From NCBI GenBank assembly GCA_024228115.1, contig JAAETT010000413.1:1-34894 (forward strand): 34,894 nt of DNA, written 5' to 3'. Below are positions 9,538 through 26,957 of this stretch, in pieces. This DNA comes from a bacterium. GTDB lineage: Bacteria > Myxococcota_A > UBA9160 > UBA6930. The notes below the pieces were generated by a model. That model was not told where the DNA came from. It ran no database searches and saw only the letters and a program-made list of their open reading frames with translations. The position numbers were made by a program, and so were the translations under genes. How positions within the stretch are numbered: the first letter of the stretch is position 1; every line of letters starts with the position of its first letter.

Positions 9538-10953
9538 CTATTTCACGTACCCGAGTGCGCGGAGAGCACGCGCTGCCTCCGGGTCGAGTGCTGGCGCATC
9601 GCCGCTCCGCGGCGACAGCAGCCCGGACTCTGCAGCGATTCGTTCGGCCTCCTCCTCGAGGCGTCGCAGGACGTCTTTCTCCACAGAAGCGAGATTCGAG
9701 TGTTCGAACGGGTCCCAACTCAGGTCGTAGAGTTCGTTCGGGTAGCGCTCGAACCAGATCAGTTTGTAGGGAAAGCGAATGAGCGACAACATGTCGCCGA
9801 ACGTGCGGTCGGTAGGCCCGCAGCCTGCACGCATCTCGTCGGGTATCTGCCCGAATCGTGCATCCGCCGCCGCGGGCCAGTCGATGCGATCCCTGTCGCT
9901 GTAGCCGGCCAGGAGGGCACGCTCCGGAACGGGCGTATCTGGCCGGGTGGGGAGCGCTCGGCCCGAAAGTTCCGGCGGAACCGGTGCCCCCGCCCACTCG
10001 AGGATGGAAGGCGCCACGTCGGTTAGGTCCACCGGTTGAGGAATCTCGGCGGGTGCTAGGTCCGGCAGGCCATGCACCACCAGCGGAATGTGCAGCAGGA
10101 GGTGCCCCACGCTGAACTGATGAACCAGTAGACGTTTTTCACCGAAATGCTCGCCGTGGTCGGAGACGACCACGGTGACGAGCCGCTCTGTGAGTCTTGC
10201 CCTGCGCAGCACGTCGAGCACGGCGCCAAGCTTGGCATCAGCGGCTCGGACGTCACCGCGGTAGAGACCCTCCATGATGGCGAGCTCCCGGGGCGATGGC
10301 AGCCGATCACAGATGCGGAAGGGCGATTGCCGCACCGCTCGTGCCTCCGCGATGGTTGCTCCTGGAGGCAAGTGCGGGTTCTCGCCCCTGATCCGGTAGG
10401 GAAGATGGGCGTCGAACACGTTCACGAAGAGGAAGAAGGGACGGTCGACATCCCGTGAGCGAGTCCAGGATGCGACGGTACGCACCAGATCGAGCGCGGC
10501 GGCTCCCGCATCATTGCCCGCGCGCGCCGCCGAAAAACGCTCGAAGCCCTGGCTCATATTGAAGAGGTCACTGATCAGGGGGTTCTCCGAGAGACCCACG
10601 GTTTGGTAGCCGACGTCTCGAAGTCGCTCAGCCAACGTCACAAGCGAGGCGTCAGCAGTCACACGCCCGCGAATGCCGACGCCGTGCTGGTCGAGCCGCA
10701 GACCCGTAAAGAGGCTCGCGTGGGATGGGAGCGTCCACGGCGCCGAAGCGAAGGCATTGCTGTAGAGCAGGCCCTCCCGTGCCAGGGTGTCCAGATGCGG
10801 CGTCGCGCCGGCGGGTCCGCCAAGGCTCGAGACCGCATCGCTGCGTACCGTGTCGAGTACCACGAGCAAGATGTCGGGACGGAGATCCTCACGCGGCGCA
10901 TTGCACCCCAAGAGGAACAGGAGCGTCCCGACCAGCCACGCGCGCCGACTCAA
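9538..10953 (-). CDS. Sulfatase-fold lipoprotein with Thr at the formylglycine position
   Basis: The 471-residue protein has a lipoprotein signal (VGTLLFLLGC) and a full alkaline-phosphatase/sulfatase fold. This shows metal-binding PDILLVVLDTVRSD near the N terminus, the nucleophile region APWTLPSHASLFTG, and VVVSDHGEHFGEK in the middle. In true sulfatases the nucleophile region is C/S-x-P-x-R; here T-L-P-S-H puts Thr at the formylglycine position and His at the Arg. It may therefore be a phosphodiesterase or transferase of this superfamily rather than a sulfate esterase. The TTG start at 10953 overlaps the TGA of the upstream sulfatase gene in TTGA, and the lipoprotein signal begins right there. 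The substrate is probably a surface polysaccharide or lipid headgroup, judging from neighbouring glycan genes. Confidence 0.87.
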   Translation of the reverse strand: MSRRAWLVGTLLFLLGCNAPREDLRPDILLVVLDTVRSDAVSSLGGPAGATPHLDTLAREGLLYSNAFASAPWTLPSHASLFTGLRLDQHGVGIRGRVTADASLVTLAERLRDVGYQTVGLSENPLISDLFNMSQGFERFSAARAGNDAGAAALDLVRTVASWTRSRDVDRPFFLFVNVFDAHLPYRIRGENPHLPPGATIAEARAVRQSPFRICDRLPSPRELAIMEGLYRGDVRAADAKLGAVLDVLRRARLTERLVTVVVSDHGEHFGEKRLLVHQFSVGHLLLHIPLVVHGLPDLAPAEIPQPVDLTDVAPSILEWAGAPVPPELSGRALPTRPDTPVPERALLAGYSDRDRIDWPAAADARFGQIPDEMRAGCGPTDRTFGDMLSLIRFPYKLIWFERYPNELYDLSWDPFEHSNLASVEKDVLRRLEEEAERIAAESGLLSPRSGDAPALDPEAARALRALGYVK

Positions 10954-13220
10954 TCGAGGTAGCCCAGTGCCCGCAGGCGCATCTCGAGGCCCGGGCTGAT
11001 CGGTTTCAGTTCGCCCGTACCCGGCGCCTGCGCTCGTTCCCTCTCCAGATACGCGTCTGCGATGGCCTCGAACTCGTGCAGAAGCCGTGGATCGACATCG
11101 GCTAGTGGCTGTGATTCCGTCGGATCGTCGAGAAGCGAGTAGACGCGTACACCCTCAGCGCTGCGGATCCACTTGTGGGTGCGCGTCCGGATGGCGATAC
11201 CTGGGCCATCGCTCTGTTCGGAGATGGCGACAGCGGAACCCGAGTCCGGGTCAGCACTGAGCAGCGGAAGCAGGCTCTCGCCGTCCAGCCGATCCCCACC
11301 CTCGAGATTCAGATAGTCCAATATGGTCGGCACCACGTCGATCATCTCCACCTGCCGCGTTACGCGGCGTGGCGCGATGGTGCCACGCGGGAACTTCATG
11401 ATCAGCGGAACGCGGATCATCTCGTCGAAGAAGGTCTGCCCATGCTGCCAGCCCCCGTGATCGAAGAACTCCTCCCCGTGGTCGCTCACCAGGATCACCA
11501 GCGCCTCGTCGTAGACCCCGCGGGTGCGGAGCATCTGGAAAATGCGGCCCAGCGTTTCGTCGACGTAGCGGATCTCGCCATCGTATCGGGCGGTCAAGTG
11601 CTCGCGTTCGCGAGATGATGCCTGGAAGCCGTCGGTTGCACGGTGCACGAACGCGCGATTGAAGCGTTCGCCGACCGTTCCCCGGTAGCCTGCGTCGAAG
11701 AGCCGTACGGCAGGATCAGGTGGCGCGTAGGGCGCGTGGGTTTCGAAGCTGTGGATCAAGAGGAAGTTGTTTCGGGGGACCCAGAGGTCGAACCACTGGC
11801 GGAATCTCCGCATGAGATCGGCCACCAGTGAATAAGAGTGAGCGCGCTGCCCGCGATGCTCCGAGTAACTGTCGAAACCGTGATGGAAACCGAAACGATG
11901 GGACATGAAGGCACCGTCCGTGATCGCCTTTGTGAAGTACCCGCTGCCACGCAACAGGGTTGCAAGCGTCGGAATGCTCCGATCGAGCTGGTGTCCGGGT
12001 CCACGGACGCCATGGGACACGGGGTAGCGACCGGTGAGGATCGACATCTGTGAGGGCAGCGTCCAGGGTGCCTGGGCGATGGCAGTCTCGAATACCACGC
12101 TTTCCTCCGCAAAGGCCCGGATCACGGGCGAAGTCGGGCGGTCGTAGCCGTAGGCCTCGAGGTGATCGGCGCGGAGTGTATCGATGTCCACCAGAACGAC
12201 CGGCGTACGCTCGATCTTTGCGGAGTAGAGAATGGGGGCAGCGAACGCACCGAGGTCGAAGCCTGGCTCAGGGTCGCTGGTCGAGAGGATCAGCTCGACA
12301 GTCTTCCCAGACAGCGCCGCAAGATCGACGTCGAGGTCATGCCAGCGGCGGGAGGTTGCCCCATCCCTCGGTGAGAGCCGTTGCGAGTGAAGCACCAGTG
12401 CCTCGCCGTCCGGCAGGCCCGCGGAGATCGTGAATGTCACGCCATCCGACTCGAACCAGCCTTCTTCCAGGACACCGATGCCTACGTTCAGACGGCCGTC
12501 CGGCGGGACGACCAGGGTGAAGGTGTAGGCTGCCGGCGCTGGTGCGAACAGCGCCGGGCGGACGTCACCATCGATTTCGATTTCGCGCAGCGCAAAACCC
12601 ATCGGATCGAGCCCGGATTCGGCAAACTCCAGGCTTGCGAGATAGTCACGCGCGACCGGGTAGCGCACGCGGTAGGTGACCTCCGGTGGGGCGTCGAGGC
12701 CCGCCGGCCGGCGGAACAATACAAATCCTTCGCGAACCGGGATCCATGTATCGATCGCATCCGGCCGATCCGGGTCGCGGCGTGGGAGAGCCTCAGCCGC
12801 GACCTCGTCATAGACCCCGATCTCTCGGCTTCGCGCACCCGCCTTCCCGCCCATCACGATCAGGTTGAGATCTGTCTCGTGCTGGACATCGAGAGGAAAA
12901 CGCGTCCGGCAGAGCCACGAATCGAACGGTGAGCCCCGATAGCCTGCGAAATGCGTGCAGCCGCGATCTAGCAGCTCGCCTTCGATTCGAAAGTCCGCGG
13001 CCTGCAGCTCCTGGCGAATCTCCGCGGGAAGGCTCCGCGCCGGAATCTCCCAGCCGATCGAATCGACCGCATCGAGCAAGTGGACGGTGGTACCGGCAAG
13101 TGGCTCACGGGCCGGCGGGCGGGAAGCGCCGGAGGGATCGCCAGCGCCGCAAGCGATCACGGCCGCACAGGCAAGCGCCACCTGTACCGCCCGCGAGGCA
13201 GCCCTTGCTGTCCGGTGCAT
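10950..13220 (-). CDS. Large sulfatase-fold lipoprotein with N-terminal accessory domain
   Basis: The 756-residue product begins with a lipoprotein signal (VALACAAVIACGAG). About 300 residues of beta-rich sequence follow, with no motif I can name but jelly-roll-like in composition. A sulfatase-fold domain runs from about residue 340: TPVVLVDIDTLRADHLEAYG, APWTLPSQMSILTGRYPVSHG and LVSDHGEEFFDHGGW. Like its downstream neighbour it has Thr, not Cys or Ser, at the formylglycine position (T-L-P-S-Q). The ATG at 13220 gives a clean signal peptide; a GTG at 13244 would add eight residues. The accessory domain may bind the glycan substrate. The gene overlaps the next sulfatase by four bases and lies 154 bases downstream of the DsbD-alpha-like lipoprotein gene, likely in one transcript. 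Confidence 0.87.
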   Translation of the reverse strand: MHRTARAASRAVQVALACAAVIACGAGDPSGASRPPAREPLAGTTVHLLDAVDSIGWEIPARSLPAEIRQELQAADFRIEGELLDRGCTHFAGYRGSPFDSWLCRTRFPLDVQHETDLNLIVMGGKAGARSREIGVYDEVAAEALPRRDPDRPDAIDTWIPVREGFVLFRRPAGLDAPPEVTYRVRYPVARDYLASLEFAESGLDPMGFALREIEIDGDVRPALFAPAPAAYTFTLVVPPDGRLNVGIGVLEEGWFESDGVTFTISAGLPDGEALVLHSQRLSPRDGATSRRWHDLDVDLAALSGKTVELILSTSDPEPGFDLGAFAAPILYSAKIERTPVVLVDIDTLRADHLEAYGYDRPTSPVIRAFAEESVVFETAIAQAPWTLPSQMSILTGRYPVSHGVRGPGHQLDRSIPTLATLLRGSGYFTKAITDGAFMSHRFGFHHGFDSYSEHRGQRAHSYSLVADLMRRFRQWFDLWVPRNNFLLIHSFETHAPYAPPDPAVRLFDAGYRGTVGERFNRAFVHRATDGFQASSREREHLTARYDGEIRYVDETLGRIFQMLRTRGVYDEALVILVSDHGEEFFDHGGWQHGQTFFDEMIRVPLIMKFPRGTIAPRRVTRQVEMIDVVPTILDYLNLEGGDRLDGESLLPLLSADPDSGSAVAISEQSDGPGIAIRTRTHKWIRSAEGVRVYSLLDDPTESQPLADVDPRLLHEFEAIADAYLERERAQAPGTGELKPISPGLEMRLRALGYLD

Positions 13221-13374
13221 CCTTCGAGTTCCGAACGGTTCCACGGTAGCCTCGCCGGAAGACCGTTACCCCACTGCCTGAACTGCTGCAAATGCAGGCT
13301 TTCATTGTCCAGCAGAGGTACTCGATGTGTTGCGGAGCTTCTTCTTTCTACTGGCTTCTCCGCCAGTGCGTCAA

Positions 13375-15456: not shown

Positions 15457-15500
15457 GGCAGGTGTTCTACTCTACACCGACCCCCGTGGGGCACTCAAGC

Positions 15501-15524
15501 GGTTCCACCCACCGGGGTGGAACC
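15501..15524. repeat. Perfect 10-bp inverted repeat in a divergent intergenic region
   Basis: The arms GGTTCCACCC and GGGTGGAACC are separated by ACCG. It lies 45 bases from the glycosyltransferase start and 110 bases from the aminotransferase start. No T-tract follows on either strand, so an operator or an RNA hairpin in a leader is more likely than a terminator. No known binding site is recognised. Confidence 0.55.
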
Positions 15525-15634
15525 AAGCTCCCCGAACCCGTGACGGGCTCCCTGCCCTCGCGAGCAACCGGATGAACCCTCCTTCCTAGATGTAAGATGA
15601 CTTCTTCCCCCCGGGTTCCGAGGAGCCTCGAGCC

Positions 15635-16720
15635 ATGAGCGTCCACGTCACACGCAGTCTGGTACCCCCGCTGGATGCCTTTCTCGAGCGCCTCAAACCC
15701 ATCTGGGAGGAGGCGCGTTTCACCAACGACGGCCCTCAGGTACGGGAGCTGGAGCAGCTCGTTGCGCGGGAGCTGGAGAGTCCCCACGGCATCGCCGTAG
15801 CCAACGGCACTCTCGCCCTGCAGCTCGCGAGCGCCGCGCTCGGCCTCGAGGGCGAGGTGATCACCACACCCCTGTCCTTCGTGGCCACGGCGTCGAGCCT
15901 GGTATGGATGGGGCTCACCCCCGTCTTCGCGGACGTGCATCCGACCACATGGACACTCGACCCGGAGCGTTGTGCCGAGAAGATCACGCCGCGTACCCGC
16001 GCCATCCTCGCCACACACGTGTATGGCTTCCCCTGCGATGTGGATTCTCTCGCAGCCCTGGCGCGCGAGAAGAACCTGAAGCTGATCTTCGATGCCTCCC
16101 ACACCTTTGGTTGCCGCTATCGGGGGCGCCCCCTGGCCAGCTATGGGGACATCGCGACCCTGAGCCTCCACGCCACCAAGATCTTCCACAGCGCCGAAGG
16201 AGGATTCGTCTGCACGGCAGATCCGGACACCGCCCACCGGGTTCGCGTGCAGCGCAATTTTGGCTTCGATGGTCTCGAATCCTTCGCCGTGCCGGGAATC
16301 AACGCCAAGTTGTCCGAGCTGCACGCAGCCCTGGCACTCTGCATCCTGCCGTACGTGGAGGCTGCCATCGGGGAGCGCCGGATACGATTCGAGGCCTACC
16401 TGGAAGCCCTGCATGCGGTCGCCGATCGCGTGGAGCTGCCGCACATTCCCGACGACCTGGAGTACAACTACGCCTACTTCCCGCTCCTTTTCGAGAACGA
16501 GGAGGCGCTGCGCCGCGCCTGGCTCGCCCTGGTGGCAATGGACGTGTACCCACGGCGCTACTTCAATCCTCCCCTGAACAGCATCCCCTACATGGGTCGA
16601 GACCAGGCGCCGGTGGCCGAGGCGTTGAGTCCGCGACTCCTGTGCCTGCCTCTCCACGACGGCCTGCCGCTCGACGACGTGGAGCGAATCGCCGCAGCGC
16701 TGGTGGAGAGCCTGACCTAG
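15635..16720 (+). CDS. DegT/DnrJ/EryC1/StrS-family sugar aminotransferase
   Basis: This 361-residue PLP enzyme converts a nucleotide 4-keto-6-deoxy sugar to the 4-amino sugar. Conserved features are the ANGTLALQLA segment, TTPLSFVATASSLVWMG, FADVHPTTWTLDP, ATHVYGFPCDVDSL, the DASHTFGCRY Asp that contacts the PLP nitrogen, and the Schiff-base Lys in SLHATKIFHSAEGG. The SLHATK variant is, from memory, typical of VioA-like enzymes that act on dTDP-4-keto-6-deoxyglucose. With the NeuD-like acyltransferase it could make a 4-acylamido-4,6-dideoxy sugar. A GAGGAG ribosome-binding site lies nine bases before the ATG. It ends 14 bases from the convergent isomerase gene. Confidence 0.92.
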   Translation: MSVHVTRSLVPPLDAFLERLKPIWEEARFTNDGPQVRELEQLVARELESPHGIAVANGTLALQLASAALGLEGEVITTPLSFVATASSLVWMGLTPVFADVHPTTWTLDPERCAEKITPRTRAILATHVYGFPCDVDSLAALAREKNLKLIFDASHTFGCRYRGRPLASYGDIATLSLHATKIFHSAEGGFVCTADPDTAHRVRVQRNFGFDGLESFAVPGINAKLSELHAALALCILPYVEAAIGERRIRFEAYLEALHAVADRVELPHIPDDLEYNYAYFPLLFENEEALRRAWLALVAMDVYPRRYFNPPLNSIPYMGRDQAPVAEALSPRLLCLPLHDGLPLDDVERIAAALVESLT

Positions 16721-16734
16721 AAGACTGCAACGAC

Positions 16735-18447
16735 TCAGTCATCCAACCGGTCGCTGATATGGCCCATCACGGCAGAGTTGGCCACGACCCGCGGCGAGGC
16801 GAGATAGACCTGCCCGCTCGGATCACCGCTGCGCCCGCGGAAGTTCCGACTCGTGGCATAGACGCCGTTCTCGTTCGCCGGGAGAGTGCCGCGACCGGCA
16901 TTGATGCAGGCACCGCACCCCGGTTTGAGAAGCGTCGCCCCCGCCTCTTCGAATACCCGCAGGTAGCCACATCGTTCGGCTTCCCGGCGCACCTCCTGGG
17001 AGGCGGGGACCACGAACAGGTTCACACCGGACGCGACGCGACGACCCTCGAGCACCGCGGCAGCTTCGGCGAGATCGTGGAGCTTGCCGCCGGTGCAGGA
17101 TCCAATGAAGGCCCGCGTGATGGGAACGTGTCCGAGCTGAGTCACGCTCGTAACCTGATCCGGGCTTGGAGGACATGCCACCTGGGGCTCGAGAATCCGG
17201 AGATCGATTTCGATGCTGTCCTCCGACTCGGCATCCGGATCGCCCTCCAGTGCCGGCCAGCCCTGTGGAGCGCGCGCCTGGAGCCAGCTGCGGGTCACCG
17301 CATCGGGCTCCATCAGACCGCAAACGGCACCGCACTCGACCGCCATGTTTGCCAGCGTCATGCGCTCTTCCATCGGCAGCGAATCGAGGCCCGGCCCACG
17401 GAACTCGAGCACCTTGCCGGAAGCACCGTCACAGCCCAGCTGCCCTAACAGGAAGAGGGCCAGGTCCTTGGCGCCGCAGCCCTCGGGCAGCTGCCCCCGG
17501 AGCTCGACGCGCAGCGTCGGAGGCACGCGCACCCAGACGTCCCCCATGGCCAGCAGGTTCGCCATGTCCGTTGTGCCGACGCCAAAGGAAAAGCAACCGA
17601 ACGCGCCGTAGGTGCAGGTGTGCGAGTCCGTGCCGGCGATCACCATGCCGGGAGCAACGAGGCCCTGCTCGGGAAGGAGCACATGACAGATTCCGGCAGC
17701 CTCGCCCTCTGCGACCACGTCGAAGAGCTGGCAGCCCTGCTCCCGCGCGAAGTCGACCATTTCCCGGTGGAGCTTCAGCGCCGCTTCATCTTTGCGAACG
17801 TCGTTCACCTGGATGAAATGGTCCGCCACGAACACCACCTGGGACGGGCTCCGGACCCGTGCTTCCGGGCCGAAGGCAGCGTGGAATTGCCGTGCCACGG
17901 GACCCGCCACGGCATCGTGGGACATGGCCAGATCGACGCCCACGAAGACCGTTTCGCCCGGTGCGACGAAGCAGTTTCCCGAGGCACGAGCCAGAATCTT
18001 CTCGGCCAGCGTCATGGGACGGGGTCCGGTTCCGTTGGCAGCCAGGAACTCGCCACCGGTGCGCCGGCTCTGGTTGAAGGCCGTCAGTCCACCCGCCCCG
18101 ACGATCGCGGCCACGAGTGGTGTGGCCTCCCCCTGTTCTGTGGTCTTCAGAGGCAAGCCGATGTTCACGCTGTTGCGAAAGAAGATCTCGGCGAACGATC
18201 GGGCTCGCACGCGCTCGATCCCCGCGCTCTTCAACGCAAGGGGCGCGTGCTCGCGGCTCGAGCCGCAGCCGAAGTTACGACCTGCCTCGATCTCGTCGTA
18301 GCCTGCCGCCAGGGCGCCTTCCCCCAGCAGGTGCTCGAACGCGAAACGGGCGAGATGCTCAGGGTCCGCGCTCGTGCAGCGACGGGCAGGAATGATGTCG
18401 TCGGTGTTGACGTCGTCCCCCAACTCGAGGACGCGTCCCTTAGACAT
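16735..18447 (-). CDS. Fused LeuD-LeuC type 3-isopropylmalate dehydratase (swivel domain first)
   Basis: This aconitase-family hydro-lyase isomerises an isopropylmalate- or homocitrate-like intermediate. The 570-residue protein joins both subunits. Residues 1 to about 165 are the small swivel part ([32 protein letters not shown]). The remainder is the large iron-sulfur part: [55 protein letters not shown], and the end [10 protein letters not shown]. Three Cys for a [4Fe-4S] cluster are visible (GSCTG and GCGAC). Fungal Leu1 has the opposite order, and most bacteria keep two genes. The start at 18447 overlaps the stop of the LeuB-like gene by eight bases (ATGTCTAA). Substrate specificity cannot be read from sequence. 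Confidence 0.9.
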
Positions 18448-19495
18448 GGCTGGCACCGCCGCTCGCCAGGGCCGCGATGACCCGATCCGCCATCCCTTCG
18501 CAGGACACGCGTTTCCCACTGGAAGCGGGCCCCAGGTCCGGCGTGCGATAGCCCTGCTCGAGCACTCGACGCCAAGCCTGCTCGATACGGGCCGCGAGGG
18601 GATCTTCTTCCCACTGACGCAGCATCAACACCAGCGAGCCCAGGGCGCCCAGCGGGTTGGCAATGCCCTGCCCGGCGATCTCCGGCGCCGTTCCATGAAT
18701 CGGCTCGTAGAGGCCAAGCCCCTGTTCGTTCAGGCTCGCCGAGGCGAGCAGGCCGATGGAGCCCACCAGCGCACCACCGATGCTGCTCAGCCAATCTCCC
18801 ATCATGTTGCCCGCAAGAATCACGTCGAACTGCCCGGGATCCACGACGAGCTGCATGGCGAGGTTGTCCACCAGCAGGTTCTCGACCTCCACTCCGGGAA
18901 AGCCAGCCGCCTCCTCGCTCACCAGAGCGCACCAGGGGATGTGCGGCAGCGCATTCTCCTTGTGGGCCACCGTGAGCCTTCCGCTGCGGCGCGACGCGTG
19001 CTCGAGAGCCACCCGCGCGATGCGCCGGATCTGCGCGTCGTAGTAGAGCATGGTGTGGTAGCCGTAGCTCCCTCGTTCGTCCTCGCCGCGCGATCCCGGG
19101 CCGAAATGAATTCCGCTCGTGAGCTCCCGAACGAAGAGAATGTCCAATCCGTGGGTCTTTTCGGGCTTCAGGCTCGAGGCATCGAGTAGACAGTCGATCG
19201 AGCGCACGGGCCGCAGGTTGGCAAAGAAGTCGAAGTGACTGCGCAGCTCCAACAAGCCCCCGCGCTCCACCGCTCCGAGCAGGATGCCGTCCGAAGCGCT
19301 GCACACACGGGCCGTCTGGGCGGGGAAGTAGCTGCCGTGGCGTTCCCGAGCAGGGATGCCGAAATCGGCCTCCGCCACGCTGATCTCGACGCCTTCGGCA
19401 CGGGCCGCATGCTCGAGGACACGCCGGGCCGCCGAGGTCACCTCGGGACCGATTCCTTCGCCGGGCAGGACAACGAGTCGGTAGGGCCCGCCCAT
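18440..19495 (-). CDS. LeuB-like 3-isopropylmalate/homoisocitrate-type dehydrogenase
   Basis: The 351-residue beta-decarboxylating dehydrogenase has the family landmarks. They are [13 protein letters not shown] at the N terminus (GEGIG where GDGIG is usual), [30 protein letters not shown], the catalytic Tyr/Lys regions ([17 protein letters not shown]), [17 protein letters not shown], the metal-binding [12 protein letters not shown], and [22 protein letters not shown] for NAD binding. It oxidises and decarboxylates the product of the LeuDC-type isomerase. The start at 19495 shares a base with the stop of the synthase gene (TGATG) and the stop overlaps the isomerase start, so the three are coupled. 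The departures from canonical LeuB ([14 protein letters not shown]) suggest a different substrate side chain. Confidence 0.9.
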
Positions 19496-20688
19496 CAGGT
19501 CACCTCGTCGATCAGCGACCCCTCCTCGACGAGGGCCAGCACCTCCGCGGGCGAGAAGCAACGTGCCTCCGCCACCGCACGGCTCTTCAGCGCCGCTGCC
19601 ATTCGCTCGTACTCCGCCCGGGGGCGCGGCTGTCCGAGGATCTTCTCGAAGAGGTACTCGAAGTTGCTGGTGCCACTCATCTTTCCGAACCAGATTTCGG
19701 GCTCGACGCCCTCGAAGATGCAATAGCTGCGCGGATCACGGAGCAGAGAATGAACGTGGATTCCCGATTCGTGGCGCTGGGCTGCTGCAGAAAAGGGAGG
19801 GGCTGGCCGCAGGCCGAGCTGATCCAGTTGGGCGATGACATCCGGGATGGCGTCGTAGTCGATTCCTTCAACCTCGATTCCGTGACGGACCCGGAGGGCA
19901 TCGAGCACCTGTTCCAGGGCCACGTTTCCGGCACGCTCACCGATCCCGCCGAAGGTACCCGACACCATGGTGGCCCCGGCCAGCACCGCCTGGAGTGTGT
20001 TCTCCAGCGCCAGACCCTGATCGTTGTGGAAATGAACCGCCAGGGGGCCGGCGCCTCTAGAGGAGAGCAGCTCGCGGATCCAGGAGCCCGCGCGCTCCGG
20101 TCGCAAGGTGCCCACCGTGTCGCAGAGCATGAAGTGTCCCAGGTACGGACCGAAGGCGCGAGTACACTGGCGCAGGAACCCCGGGTCCGCACGGCTCGCG
20201 TCCTCTGCCGCGAAGTCGACACGAAGATCGATTCCCTTGCTAGTCGCGTAGCGCAGGCTCTCCAGCACCCGGGCGATCACTCCCTCCCGCAAACGCTCGA
20301 TCACCACGTCCGGAACACCGTCATCGATGGTCCTGCCCGCGAAGGCCGGGTCGTCTCTCAACTCCGCGTCGCGCAGGAACATGAGCCGGTCCGAGAGCGC
20401 ATAGAAGAGGATGATTCGCCCCGCGCCGCTGGCCTTGGCCTGGTCGACGCTAGGCTTGCCGAGCATGGTGGCCGGGGTGAGGCGGTCGCCCAGTCCCTCC
20501 TTCACCAGTGTGGCGGCCAGGGCCGCCTCGCTCGCATCCACCGCGGGCATCACGTCGATCTGGTGCACGCCGGTCCGCGCGATCCCGCGCGCCAACTGGA
20601 GCTTGGCCCCGGGCGGGAAGGAGATGCCCGCCTGTTGCTCACCGTCGCGCAGCGTCTCGTCGAAGATCTTCAGGCGCCGGACTTCCAT
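19495..20688 (-). CDS. LeuA/NifV-like 2-isopropylmalate or homocitrate synthase
   Basis: This 397-residue DRE-TIM metallolyase would condense acetyl-CoA with a 2-oxoacid. Seen are the signature FDETLRDGEQQAGISF, DVMPAVDASE, LCDTVGTLRPE, the metal-binding AVHFHNDQGLALENTLQAVLAGA, SGTFGGIGERAGN, and RHESGIHVHSLLRDP. A helical C-terminal part ends EVLALVEEGSLIDEV. It lacks the C-terminal leucine-feedback domain of LeuA (usually 500+ residues), so it is closer in form to homocitrate or citramalate synthases and probably not leucine-regulated. It is the first gene of the coupled synthase/dehydrogenase/isomerase set. An extra charged segment at about 108-135 (RDAELRDDPAFAGR and following) is unusual. 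Confidence 0.88.
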   Translation of the reverse strand: MEVRRLKIFDETLRDGEQQAGISFPPGAKLQLARGIARTGVHQIDVMPAVDASEAALAATLVKEGLGDRLTPATMLGKPSVDQAKASGAGRIILFYALSDRLMFLRDAELRDDPAFAGRTIDDGVPDVVIERLREGVIARVLESLRYATSKGIDLRVDFAAEDASRADPGFLRQCTRAFGPYLGHFMLCDTVGTLRPERAGSWIRELLSSRGAGPLAVHFHNDQGLALENTLQAVLAGATMVSGTFGGIGERAGNVALEQVLDALRVRHGIEVEGIDYDAIPDVIAQLDQLGLRPAPPFSAAAQRHESGIHVHSLLRDPRSYCIFEGVEPEIWFGKMSGTSNFEYLFEKILGQPRPRAEYERMAAALKSRAVAEARCFSPAEVLALVEEGSLIDEVT

Positions 20689-20973: not shown

Positions 20974-23900
20974 ATGAACCTCTTCGGACTCCTCGTGCTG
21001 GCCTTCGTATCCTTCCTGATCGGATGTGGGCCGGAGCAGCGCGACGATGCGACGCCTGTCCAACCGGCTCGCCCCGCCGTCCCCGAGGCGAAGTGGCAGG
21101 AGATGCTCGACTCTGAGGCGCTGCTCGATGCCCTGGGACCGAGCTTCCGTTCCTTGGCGCGCTCCGTCGAGAACCTCCGCGTCCCGGATGCGCAGAGCGT
21201 CGGGCTCTTCGATCTGCTGGTCGAGACCGCGGACCTTCCAGCCGATTCCCTGCAGACGGGGACCCCGCGCTCCGAAACTCTTCCACGAGAAGTGCTCGAG
21301 GGCAAAGCCGGAGCTTTGACACCGCCCCGGGCTCCTTCGGACCTCGACCTGTTGAGACCCCTGCTCGACCGGGTCACCAGGTTCGAGCGCGTGGGTCTTG
21401 GTACGAAGCGGGGTCGCTTCGTCGACCCGGAACGCCGGATCTTCGAGACGGACCTGCAGCTGAAGGGGTTTGCCCACCTCCATTCACAGACCGTGGCCTC
21501 TGTCTCCGGCCGTATTCAGCTGCGCTGGAAGAGACGAAACGATGCGGAGCTTCTCGATGCCAACTCGTGGCGCATCGCGTCCTGGCGCACGAAGAAGCTG
21601 AAGCTCCATCGAGCGCCCCGACGACTGTTCCAGGAGGTTCTCGCGCACGCACTTCCCGAAGAGGACACACTGCGCCGAGCCCGACACTCGGAGCACGAGA
21701 GGTTGGTCGCCCGCTACCTGAAGGACCCTGAGGGCTTCCAGGCCCCGACTCCCCACTTTCACCTTGCCTCCCACGATCGTCATCCAGGAATCGCCGTGAT
21801 CGACATCGATGGTGATGGGGACGACGACATCTATGTGATGGTGCGCTGGGGACCGAACCAGCTGCTGGTAAACGACGGGAACGGCCACTTCGAAGAGCGG
21901 GCGGCCGAGGTCGGCCTCGACATCGAAGACCACTCTGCCGCCGCCGTCTTCGCCGACTTCGACAACGACGGCGACCCCGACGTCTTCGTGGGCCGCACCC
22001 TGGCGCCGAGCGTCTACCTGGAGAACGTCGAGGGGCGCTTCGTGGAGCGCGCTGATGGCATGAGCGGCGGCCCCATGCCGAATCTGGTCGCCTCGCTCTC
22101 AGCCGTCGACTACAACGGCGACGGCCTGCTCGACATCTACGCCTCCACCTATGCCGCCAACATCATCGTCAAGCAGTACAAGACGAGACGAATCAGGGCC
22201 TCCCGTGGAGCGGGGGCGGCACCGGATTTACTCCTCGAGGAGTTCCTGCCCGAAAGAGATGCAAAGCGTCTGCTGGAGCTGTCCGCCTCCGCCGGTTCCC
22301 ACGAGTACCTCCTCCTTCCCGGCCCGCCCAACCTCCTGCTCACGAACCAGGGTGGAGGTCGCTTCTCCCACGATCCCCAGAACGCTCCGCTCCGCCTGTT
22401 CTCCAACACCTATCAGGCCACCTGGTCCGACTTCGACCGGGACGGTGATCCGGACGTCTATCTGGCCCATGATTTCTCGCCCAACCAGTTCTTTCGCAAC
22501 GAACTCGCCGGGAAGTTCACGGACATCACCGAGGAGACGGGAACCGCCGATATCGGCTTCGGCATGGGTGTCGGCTGGGGCGACTACGACAACGACGGCA
22601 GGCAGGATCTCTACGTCACCAACATGTACAGCAAGGCTGGAAACCGCATCACCGAGTTCTTCGGCGAGGCCGATCCACGCTTCCGAAAGATGGCCCACGG
22701 GAACAGCCTGTTCCGCAACACCGGGGAACGCTTCGAGCTCGTCTCGGGGAAGGGCGGGCTCGAAGTCGAGATCGCGGGCTGGTCCTGGGGCGGACAGTTC
22801 GCCGACTTCGACAACGACGGTTTCCTCGACCTGTACGCACTGAGCGGCTACTACACGACCCCGCCCGAGGTGGAGTCGGTCGCGGACATCTGAAGCGACT
22901 ACTGGCGCACGGTCGTGCGCTCGGATCAATCCGTGGATTTCGGCCAGGGCGTGCCCGTTGTTGGACTGGGAACACCAGGACGGACTTTCGAGGACGGTGT
23001 CTCGTTCAGCGGCAAGGAGCGCAACCACCTCTTCCTGAACGTGGGGGGGACGGAGTTCGACGACGTCGGAGCCATCTCGGGCCTCGACGACCCTGCGGAT
23101 GGGCGGGCCTTCGCGCTGCTCGACTTCGACCGGGATGGCTGGCTCGACCTCGCCGTCGTGAATGCCAACACCCCACTCCTGCAGCTCTTCCGCAACGAGA
23201 TCCCGGCTGCGGACATGGCGCCGGGGGCAGGTGCCGCCATCGCGCTCCGTTTCGTGGGCAGCAACACGAATGCAGAGCCCTCACCCGCCGCGAGCAGCCG
23301 CGACGGTTTTGGTGCCCTGGTCGAGGTAGACCTGGGCTCGACGACGTTGCTGCGCGAGCACCGCGCCGGGGAGGGCTTTGCCGCCCAGAACAGCGCAACA
23401 TTGCTGATCGGTATCGGCACGCGCGAGGCTGCCGATTCGGTTCGTGTGCGCTGGCCCTCTGGAGCCATTCAGTTGATCGAGGAGATTCCGGCTGGCACCC
23501 TGCTCACGCTGTACGAGGACCCAGCCCAGAGCCCCGATGGCCTCGCCGTCGTCCGCACGGCCTACGCCGTGGCCGAGGCCACGCCCTGGCCGGCGCCACG
23601 TCGCACGCCCCGGCAGGCGCCCCAGCTCGTGACGAGCCTGGTGGCCGAAAGCCCGCCGGGTGCGCTGAACGTGTTCACCACCATGGCTACCTGGTGCGAG
23701 GCGTGCCGGAAGGAGCTGGCCCAGGTTCAGCTGCTGCGAGATCGCTTCGAGGAAGGAGAGCTGCGCCTGGTCGGGATTCCCGTCGATCGGGATGACAGTC
23801 GGGAGAAGCTGCAGCGCTGGCTTCGCCAGGAGCGGCCAGCCTACGAGCTTCAGCTCGAGGCCTCCTCCTCGGAGGTTGCTGAGTTCGAACGCTGGCTGAT

Positions 23901-24045
23901 CGAAGCGCTGCACCGAGAAGGTCTGCCCGCGAGTGTGGTCACCGACCACCAGGGCCGGGTCCTGAGCACCCGATTCGGAGTGCCCACGGTCTCCGAGATC
24001 CTCGGCCTCCTCCCTCTGGAGCCAGCTCCCGCCGCGGGTGGCTGA
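20974..24045 (+). CDS. Candidate selenoprotein: FG-GAP/ASPIC-UnbV lipoprotein with thioredoxin domain (TGA at codon 640)
   Basis: Read through one in-frame TGA (22891-22893), this gives 1023 residues. It begins with a lipoprotein signal (LVLAFVSFLIGC), then a helical region of about 250 residues. FG-GAP/VCBS blades from about 275 carry Ca loops DIDGDGDDD, DFDNDGDPD, DYNGDGLLD, DFDRDGDPD, DYDNDGRQD and DFDNDGFLD. The TGA falls between SVADI and SDYWRTVV. The frame then continues with another blade (DFDRDGWLD) and an ASPIC/UnbV domain (DGFGALVEVDLG, REHRAGEGFAAQNS, VRVRWPSGAIQ). It ends in a TlpA/thioredoxin-like domain with WCEAC (Cys 908 and 911). The stop cuts the propeller, so residues 1-639 alone would be incomplete. 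A SECIS-like hairpin follows the TGA. If there is no recoding, this is a gene split by a nonsense mutation. It heads a three-gene operon. Confidence 0.8.
22891..22920 (+). promoter_or_regulatory. Candidate bacterial SECIS element with its UGA codon
   Basis: The TGA at 22891-22893 is followed 17 bases later by the loop of a perfect hairpin: stem GCGCAC (22905-22910), loop GGTC (22911-22914), stem GTGCGC (22915-22920). The E. coli fdhF SECIS has the same GGUC loop about 18 bases after UGA. As I recall the bacterial SECIS consensus, it asks for a G in the first two loop bases and 16-37 bases between UGA and loop; both hold. Unlike fdhF there is no bulged U in the stem. The same bases encode WRTVVR, so some of the pairing could be chance codon use. 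Confidence 0.68.
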
Positions 24046-26087: not shown

Positions 26088-26126
26088 CGATCTCCTCGAG
26101 CGCCGAAGCAGGTGGAACCCTCGCCC

Positions 26127-26957
26127 ATGACCAACCCCCAAGGCTCCAGAGGACGAGATTGGTTGCTCCGAGCGGCCATTGGCCTCACGACCGTGGCTCT
26201 CGTGGCCGGCTGCGGTGGCTCCGGGCCGGAGCAGGCACGGGACCGGGCGCTCACCTACTTCTCGACCCAGGTCCACGAGATCGACCACGGCTGGTCGTCC
26301 GTCTTCGACTACCTGCACCGGCGCTTCGGACTCGAGCTCACCCTGGCGTCCGGCCGCACGCCCTACGGAGCCCAGAAGGAACTCGAGCGTCCGGAGCTCT
26401 TCGCGGTCTACCGGCGGCTCGTCGACCCCGCGGCCCGGGTGAGCAAACGACAGATCGCCGAGCTCCCCACGGCCATCGATCGGATGACTGCAAGCGCGCT
26501 GCACTGCGACCAGATTGCGCTTCCCGACGGCTGGGTCGACGTGCTGCGCACCGCGTCTGGCATGGGGGCCTACGCGCTGACTCATGCGGTGGTCGCGGCA
26601 CGCTGGACGCTGGAGAACGGGTGCCTCTCCGAGATGGAGCTGATCCCACTCCACTTCGAGCAGGTCGAGCTGCTCGAAGCGCTGATCGAGGAACGCGAGG
26701 TCTTGAACTCGCGTCACCAGTTCGCCACCGATATCTGGATCGAGGCCATGGCCATGCTCTACTACCTGGGGGAGGGTGACCGCGTCCGCCCCGAATGGAT
26801 CGAAGCATTGTTGGCGGCCCAGCGCGAGGATGGGGGCTGGCCAAATCACCCCCGAGCACCGACCTCCCACCCGCACCCGAGCGCGCTGGCACTCTGGGTC
26901 CTGCTCGGGGGACTCCACCCCGACGCCCCGGCGACCGCCTGGATTCCATCCGGCTGA
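26127..26957 (+). CDS. Lipoprotein with a cyclase-like QW repeat unit
   Basis: The 276-residue product has a lipoprotein signal (LTTVALVAGCGG) and an all-helical mature part. Its C-terminal 75-residue unit (26724-26948) contains LLAAQREDGGWP, a QW-type motif like those in squalene cyclases and prenyltransferase beta subunits, followed by HPSALALWVLL. An earlier segment (VDVLRTASGMGAYALTHAVVAARW) may be a diverged unit. The frame ends WIPSG, but a second copy of the unit lies just downstream in another frame, so this CDS is probably cut short by a one-base slip. The ATG at 26127 directly precedes the signal peptide; a GTG at 26112 is possible. The substrate and role are unknown; third gene of the operon. 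Confidence 0.72.
   Translation: MTNPQGSRGRDWLLRAAIGLTTVALVAGCGGSGPEQARDRALTYFSTQVHEIDHGWSSVFDYLHRRFGLELTLASGRTPYGAQKELERPELFAVYRRLVDPAARVSKRQIAELPTAIDRMTASALHCDQIALPDGWVDVLRTASGMGAYALTHAVVAARWTLENGCLSEMELIPLHFEQVELLEALIEEREVLNSRHQFATDIWIEAMAMLYYLGEGDRVRPEWIEALLAAQREDGGWPNHPRAPTSHPHPSALALWVLLGGLHPDAPATAWIPSG

Follow-up and report, generated by a model that had tools for sequence, protein, structure and literature searches.

An in-frame TGA codon in a gene for a predicted FG-GAP/ASPIC/thioredoxin lipoprotein very probably encodes selenocysteine (Sec), and the gene belongs to a family that appears to comprise at least four Sec subfamilies (Table 1). The gene lies within a bacterial contig of 34,894 nucleotides, the whole of which is referred to here as the window. 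Direct reading of the sequence finds one internal TGA in the gene, at codon 640, after which the frame stays open for 383 sense codons to a terminating TGA (24043-24045), exactly as an earlier, sequence-only reading of the window had claimed. Its predicted product is an exported lipoprotein that combines a CRTAC1-like FG-GAP propeller with an ASPIC/UnbV domain and, at the C-terminus, a thioredoxin domain of TlpA/ResA-like type. Relative to a close homologue (L053, 94-95% identity), Ka/Ks is 0.275 upstream of the TGA and 0.301 downstream of it; purifying selection appears equally strong on both sides. Sec would be inserted at codon 640 by SelB and Sec-tRNA(Sec), directed by a GGUC hairpin just downstream.

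Table 1 Features of the candidate selenoprotein gene (window coordinates) and motifs of the Sec subfamilies (U, Sec)
Feature	Position	Strand	Motif	Evidence or remark
Candidate selenoprotein ORF	20974..24045	+		1023 aa with TGA640 as Sec; second TGA closes
Probable lipoprotein signal peptide	20974..21027	+	FLIGC lipobox	Lipid-bearing Cys18; from translation
FG-GAP/VCBS-type beta-propeller, residues about 272-745	21787..23208	+	Dx[DN]xDG loops	Pfam FG-GAP_3 5e-43, FG-GAP 5e-23
Predicted Sec codon TGA, codon 640	22891..22893	+	DIU-SDYWRTVVRSD	Sequence, homologue alignment
Predicted bacterial SECIS hairpin, 6-bp stem	22905..22920	+	GCGCAC (22905-22910)/GTGCGC (22915-22920)	Sequence, hairpin counts, covariation
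Apical loop, predicted SelB contact	22911..22914	+	GGUC	17 nt after TGA
ASPIC/UnbV domain, residues 778-845	23305..23508	+		Pfam PF07593 1e-15
TlpA/ResA/DsbE-like thioredoxin domain, residues 900-996	23671..23961	+		Pfam AhpC-TSA, NCBIfam TlpA, Foldseek
Redox motif, Cys908 and Cys911	23695..23706	+	CEAC	Orthologue comparison
Sec subfamily 1 (window type)			YYTxPxxxxxDxU-SDYWRTVVRSD	Thioredoxin domain present
Sec subfamily 2			NGFITTEDTGDLU-SFFWRQVVSQSP	Thioredoxin domain, longer C-termini
Sec subfamily 3			NGFITGPLEDDLU-LDMMEGVGRR	Without thioredoxin domain
Sec subfamily 4			AGFIS...KPDGU-SCVWQAVVSQP	Without thioredoxin domain

The TGA is a conserved feature of this gene. A protein search for orthologues in 192 related genomes recovered sequences at 44-95% identity, each with an internal TGA, and in all orthologues found in this study (42-95% identity) that TGA aligns with codon 640; where a sense codon might have been seen, independent related genomes carry TGA too. 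A scan of genome contigs added three records, JAAELW010000107 ('bacterium isolate Bpl_16'), JANQFK010000040 ('Myxococcota bacterium') and JAGQPC010000323 ('Planctomycetales bacterium HKST-UBA30', genome G192). The order to which G192 belongs contributed about 20 more genomes; many of these hold more than one paralogue, and almost every gene has one internal TGA. A tblastn search of plasmids returned distant CRTAC1 proteins alone. When 224 loci were placed in an HMM alignment over a region of about 200 residues, all 95 in-frame TGAs of that region fell in one column. This column holds TGA in 91 distinct sequences and Cys in 15 homologues (motif DYC-STFWRHDI and variants), and the stop found there is always TGA, never TAA or TAG. 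Three divergent homologues (L049:2025, L056:2368 and L217:1369) have Ala at this position and are possibly inactive or have a different function; two of the three carry a GxxxYWYDLASW-type motif. Sec (89) and Cys (15) sequences are separated by a single change, with a support of 100, in a tree of 104 sequences, and close Cys homologues are missing because the two groups split only once in this sample. Additional stops in some search rows, considered as further Sec codons, were rejected, since each is either the normal terminator of its gene or located past the gene end.

The sequence-only reading had also described a perfect 6-bp hairpin with a GGTC loop 17 nt past the TGA, which is confirmed by reading the sequence, and had proposed it as the SECIS element. 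No other perfect 6-bp stem enclosing GGTC occurs in the window, whichever strand is read, and the hairpin agrees with the geometry of the published bacterial SECIS model, in which a G occupies one of the first two loop bases, the loop lies 16-37 nt past the UGA, and stem and loop measure 4-16 bp and 3-9 nt (PMC13188914). Single-sequence folding energy in this region is ordinary (z = -0.22), so the significance of the hairpin rests on comparison; no Rfam model matched at E<=5. Hairpins were counted if gap-free, with at least 5 bp, a G as first or second loop base and a loop 16-37 nt away, and the expected number was obtained by re-encoding each unchanged protein stretch according to the codon usage of its gene. 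By this count a SECIS-type hairpin follows 87 of the 91 distinct TGAs (22.3 expected under synonymous recoding) and one of the 15 Cys codons in Cys homologues (1.4 expected). The stem also covaries, and together with the counts this upholds the proposal that the hairpin is a SECIS. In subfamily 1, 96.7% of stem cells are paired and the covariation score is 0.189 against 0.108 in shuffles (2/500); the corresponding values for subfamily 2 are 96.5% and 0.200 against 0.127 (0/500), with shuffles that leave sequence relatedness in, and controls slid away from the real position score far below it. Stem variants include GCGGGC/GCCCGC in L032 and GCGTGC/GTACGC in L028, and the GGUC loop is invariant across 15 distinct rows of the window's subfamily. 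Codon heterozygosity at conserved residues of the SECIS averages 0.11 compared to 0.44 elsewhere (p about 0.001). Orthologues L030 and L031 have one U-U mismatch adjoining the loop-closing pair together with a longer outer stem, and the hairpins of L180, L203 and L135 are irregular as well.

All parts of the Sec machinery are encoded in the same genome as the window (G000; 97% complete, 700 contigs): SelA (455 bits), SelB (285 bits, above cut-off), tRNA-Sec (71.3 bits, with the next match at 43) with a TCA (UCA) anticodon read from its sequence, and two SelD genes, one of which has Sec at its canonical site (LARTCGUAAKIG). Because these components are found, and because SelD itself contains Sec, the Sec system is considered to be present and in use in this organism. 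The second SelD (L141, G000:C99:7300-10200, minus strand) has no internal stop and follows a pyridine-nucleotide-disulfide-oxidoreductase-like (Ndh-type) domain in a fusion protein, while the Sec-containing SelD is a separate gene on C360. tRNA-Sec is common in the window organism's own order. Among 98 genomes sampled around G192, a strong tRNA-Sec match (62 bits or more) occurs in 17 of the 21 genomes that have the family and in 17 of the 77 that do not (Fisher p = 1.2e-6). Six family genomes are without a clear tRNA-Sec (G002, G048, G197, G222, G252 and G268); SelB is above cut-off in five of them, and G252 has neither component above cut-off. G192 has tRNA-Sec with no SelB above cut-off. 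Incomplete metagenome-assembled genomes could explain the absent machinery in G252 and G192.

The earlier inference that this TGA is read as Sec is thus borne out by the encoded machinery, by TGA or Cys at the aligned column, and by SECIS hairpins whose stems covary. Other explanations of the internal stop were weighed against it. A lone nonsense mutation, which the sequence-only reading had named as the main alternative, or a pseudogene or assembly error, would be the simplest reading of one internal stop, and the assembly is fragmented, but the same TGA recurs in every orthologue found, at identities as low as 42%, as well as in tens of paralogues, and Ka/Ks is 0.30 downstream of it; the homologues refute this explanation, which keeps a negligible probability. 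Organism-wide reassignment of UGA would account for an in-frame UGA within a conserved gene. It is refuted by the TGA codons that terminate 32 of 76 closed family members, this gene among them; internal TGAs occur one per gene, and its probability is smaller still, close to nil. Two cistrons are suggested by the ORF listing, which offers GTG 22915 as a start, so that a 639-aa propeller would be followed by a 376-aa protein; this arrangement is extremely improbable, given that S, W and R between the TGA and GTG 22915 are conserved, that the split would cut the propeller, and that TGA is conserved where TAA or TAG would serve. Insertion of an ordinary amino acid by regulated or leaky stop-codon readthrough fits a conserved internal stop with a downstream hairpin in principle. 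It is very improbable nonetheless, because TGA is the sole stop codon at this column, sister homologues have Cys, the hairpin has the geometry of the published SECIS model and the family co-occurs with tRNA-Sec.

Domain searches agree with the FG-GAP, ASPIC/UnbV and thioredoxin-like regions that the sequence-only reading had named. Pfam matches above cut-off are PF13517, PF01839 and PF07593; AhpC-TSA (25.7 bits) is marginally under its cut-off of 26.0, and the thioredoxin assignment comes through Foldseek matches to StoA/TlpA/ResA and NCBIfam TlpA (2.8e-5), with WCEAC at residues 907-911 within the thioredoxin fold. The AlphaFold model has a mean pLDDT of 70.6, and its best Foldseek match is mouse CRTAC1 (9etn, E 8e-26, TMt 0.68), with aldos-2-ulose dehydratase, a metal-dependent propeller enzyme, as the second family of matches. 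The Sec loop (residues 627-680) is modelled at very low confidence (pLDDT about 30), and the original placement of Sec 'inside a propeller' therefore holds only if it is taken to mean a long loop that follows a propeller blade. Among orthologues long enough to compare, no Cys/Sec column is invariant apart from Sec640 and Cys911 (the second Cys in WCEAC); the first Cys of the CxxC is lost in L033 alone, where the thioredoxin motif is degenerate.

Subfamilies 1 and 2 are the two largest. One subfamily-1 paralogue has no thioredoxin domain, and L035 (subfamily 2) has TPR in its C-terminus. Members of subfamily 4 (L163, L164, L212, L213 and L214) are divergent, with a larger hairpin loop and G in its second position. 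Some genomes carry up to about eight copies of the gene, where copy numbers counted from retrieved loci are lower bounds. Gene neighbourhood is informative to a small degree: genes flanking the selenoprotein gene are kept in the near relative L053, and the downstream gene at 26112-26954 also adjoins the selenoprotein gene in L034. Consecutive genes for an HMGL-like aldolase/lyase, an isocitrate/isopropylmalate dehydrogenase and an aconitase family protein adjoin the selenoprotein gene in the window (15467-20688, minus strand) and probably represent a leucine- or homocitrate-type pathway. A sulfatase with a C-terminal segment of N-sulphoglucosamine-sulphohydrolase type is encoded at 10950-13244 (minus strand). 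In another genome, several Sec-type and non-Sec FG-GAP/ASPIC genes are clustered (L225-L227, G275:C105:28000-88000) and interspersed with TPR-sulfotransferase, phosphodiesterase-TPR, PQQ-propeller, cytochrome c7-like and Cu-monooxygenase-like/TPR genes; this cluster could hint at the function of the family.

Sec on the long loop after the propeller blade may be a redox-active residue that acts on a substrate held by the propeller. As no further conserved Cys is available in the propeller, a thioredoxin is proposed as the reductant of oxidised Sec: in subfamilies 1 and 2 this would be the fused domain, acting through its CxxC, and in subfamilies 3 and 4 a separate thioredoxin. We consider the chances of this mechanism evenly balanced. 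It is favoured by Sec640 and Cys911 as the sole invariant Cys/Sec columns of the longer orthologues compared, and by the fact that subfamilies 1 and 2 carry propeller and thioredoxin domain on one chain. Counting against it are the unplaced Sec loop in the model, the degenerate motif of L033, and the absence of the thioredoxin domain from subfamilies 3 and 4 and from one subfamily-1 paralogue; if the redox idea holds, subfamilies without this domain must have another partner. The main functional rival concerns chemistry only: Sec would be inserted but would bind a metal or soft ligand, or serve as an attachment point, without being a redox catalyst, and the thioredoxin domain would merely keep Sec reduced or have a separate job. 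Many conserved Asp/Asn residues in the Dx[DN]xDG motifs of the CRTAC1-like propeller, two Sec subfamilies without a thioredoxin domain and the metal-dependent aldos-2-ulose dehydratase matches speak for ligand binding. Against it speak the fusion to a thioredoxin domain with CxxC in both of the largest subfamilies and the redox function of most selenoproteins known to date (PMC13188914), and we regard it as rather unlikely. In its widest form, the redox proposal would see in these proteins a widespread class of exported redox enzymes that are built on a propeller and depend on Sec, with a catalytic Sec on a propeller loop, a built-in thioredoxin reductant and several copies per genome that would make the class a main selenium user in some uncultured bacteria; this is put forward tentatively, as a prospect just short of even.

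The family was not found in published selenoprotein lists, and its novelty is to be read as 'not found' and not as proven. A full-text literature search, with subscription journals and preprints outside its scope, for selenoproteins or selenocysteine in connection with FG-GAP, ASPIC, CRTAC1, UnbV or VCBS returned nothing relevant, and no selenoprotein model of NCBIfam (June 2026) matched above its cut-off, in agreement with the view of the sequence-only reading that the family has no known selenoprotein member. A May 2026 review counts 119 prokaryotic selenoprotein families, with no FG-GAP, ASPIC or CRTAC1 entry in its Table 1 (PMC13188914). The 2025 deep-Sep paper has no selenoprotein of FG-GAP/ASPIC kind, and its authors state that selenoproteins lacking Cys homologues may escape their method (PMC12013277). 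Selenoproteins are reported in two planctomycetes (PMC4807772). What is new to the catalogue is the Sec-carrying protein family, with 91 distinct Sec members sampled and a fold class that the published list does not contain, and a Sec position outside any thioredoxin motif; decoding would follow the known bacterial SelB/SECIS mechanism. The selenoproteomes of some genomes are probably underestimated because they have up to about eight family copies each, and standard annotation is expected to split every such gene at the UGA. A blind spot also becomes apparent, in that families with a fixed Sec are missed by methods dependent on close Cys homologues. The CRTAC1/ASPIC family is poorly understood and has animal members. 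A definable residue that ties it to redox or selenium chemistry could provide a handle on propeller function.

The protein compares most closely with three known groups. With selenoproteins of the E. coli fdhF type, which depend on SelB and a SECIS within the coding region, it shares an in-frame UGA, an apical GGUC loop 17 nt downstream, SelA, SelB, SelD and tRNA-Sec in the genome, and Cys-containing homologues; the host protein differs, being predicted here to be an FG-GAP/ASPIC propeller lipoprotein. CRTAC1/ASPIC-UnbV proteins (PF07593, PF13517) share the order of FG-GAP repeats followed by ASPIC/UnbV, and mouse CRTAC1 (9etn) is the nearest solved structure, although its 551 residues span only part of the 1023-residue model. 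In addition to this architecture, the present protein has a Sec loop after a blade ending in DxDNDGxxDLYxxxG, a C-terminal thioredoxin domain and a lipoprotein signal. Exported thioredoxins of the TlpA/ResA/StoA/DsbE kind have the fold of the C-terminal domain and its WCxxC motif, whereas here the domain is fused behind a Sec-bearing propeller, and Sec lies outside the thioredoxin motif, unlike in most UxxC/CxxU selenoproteins.
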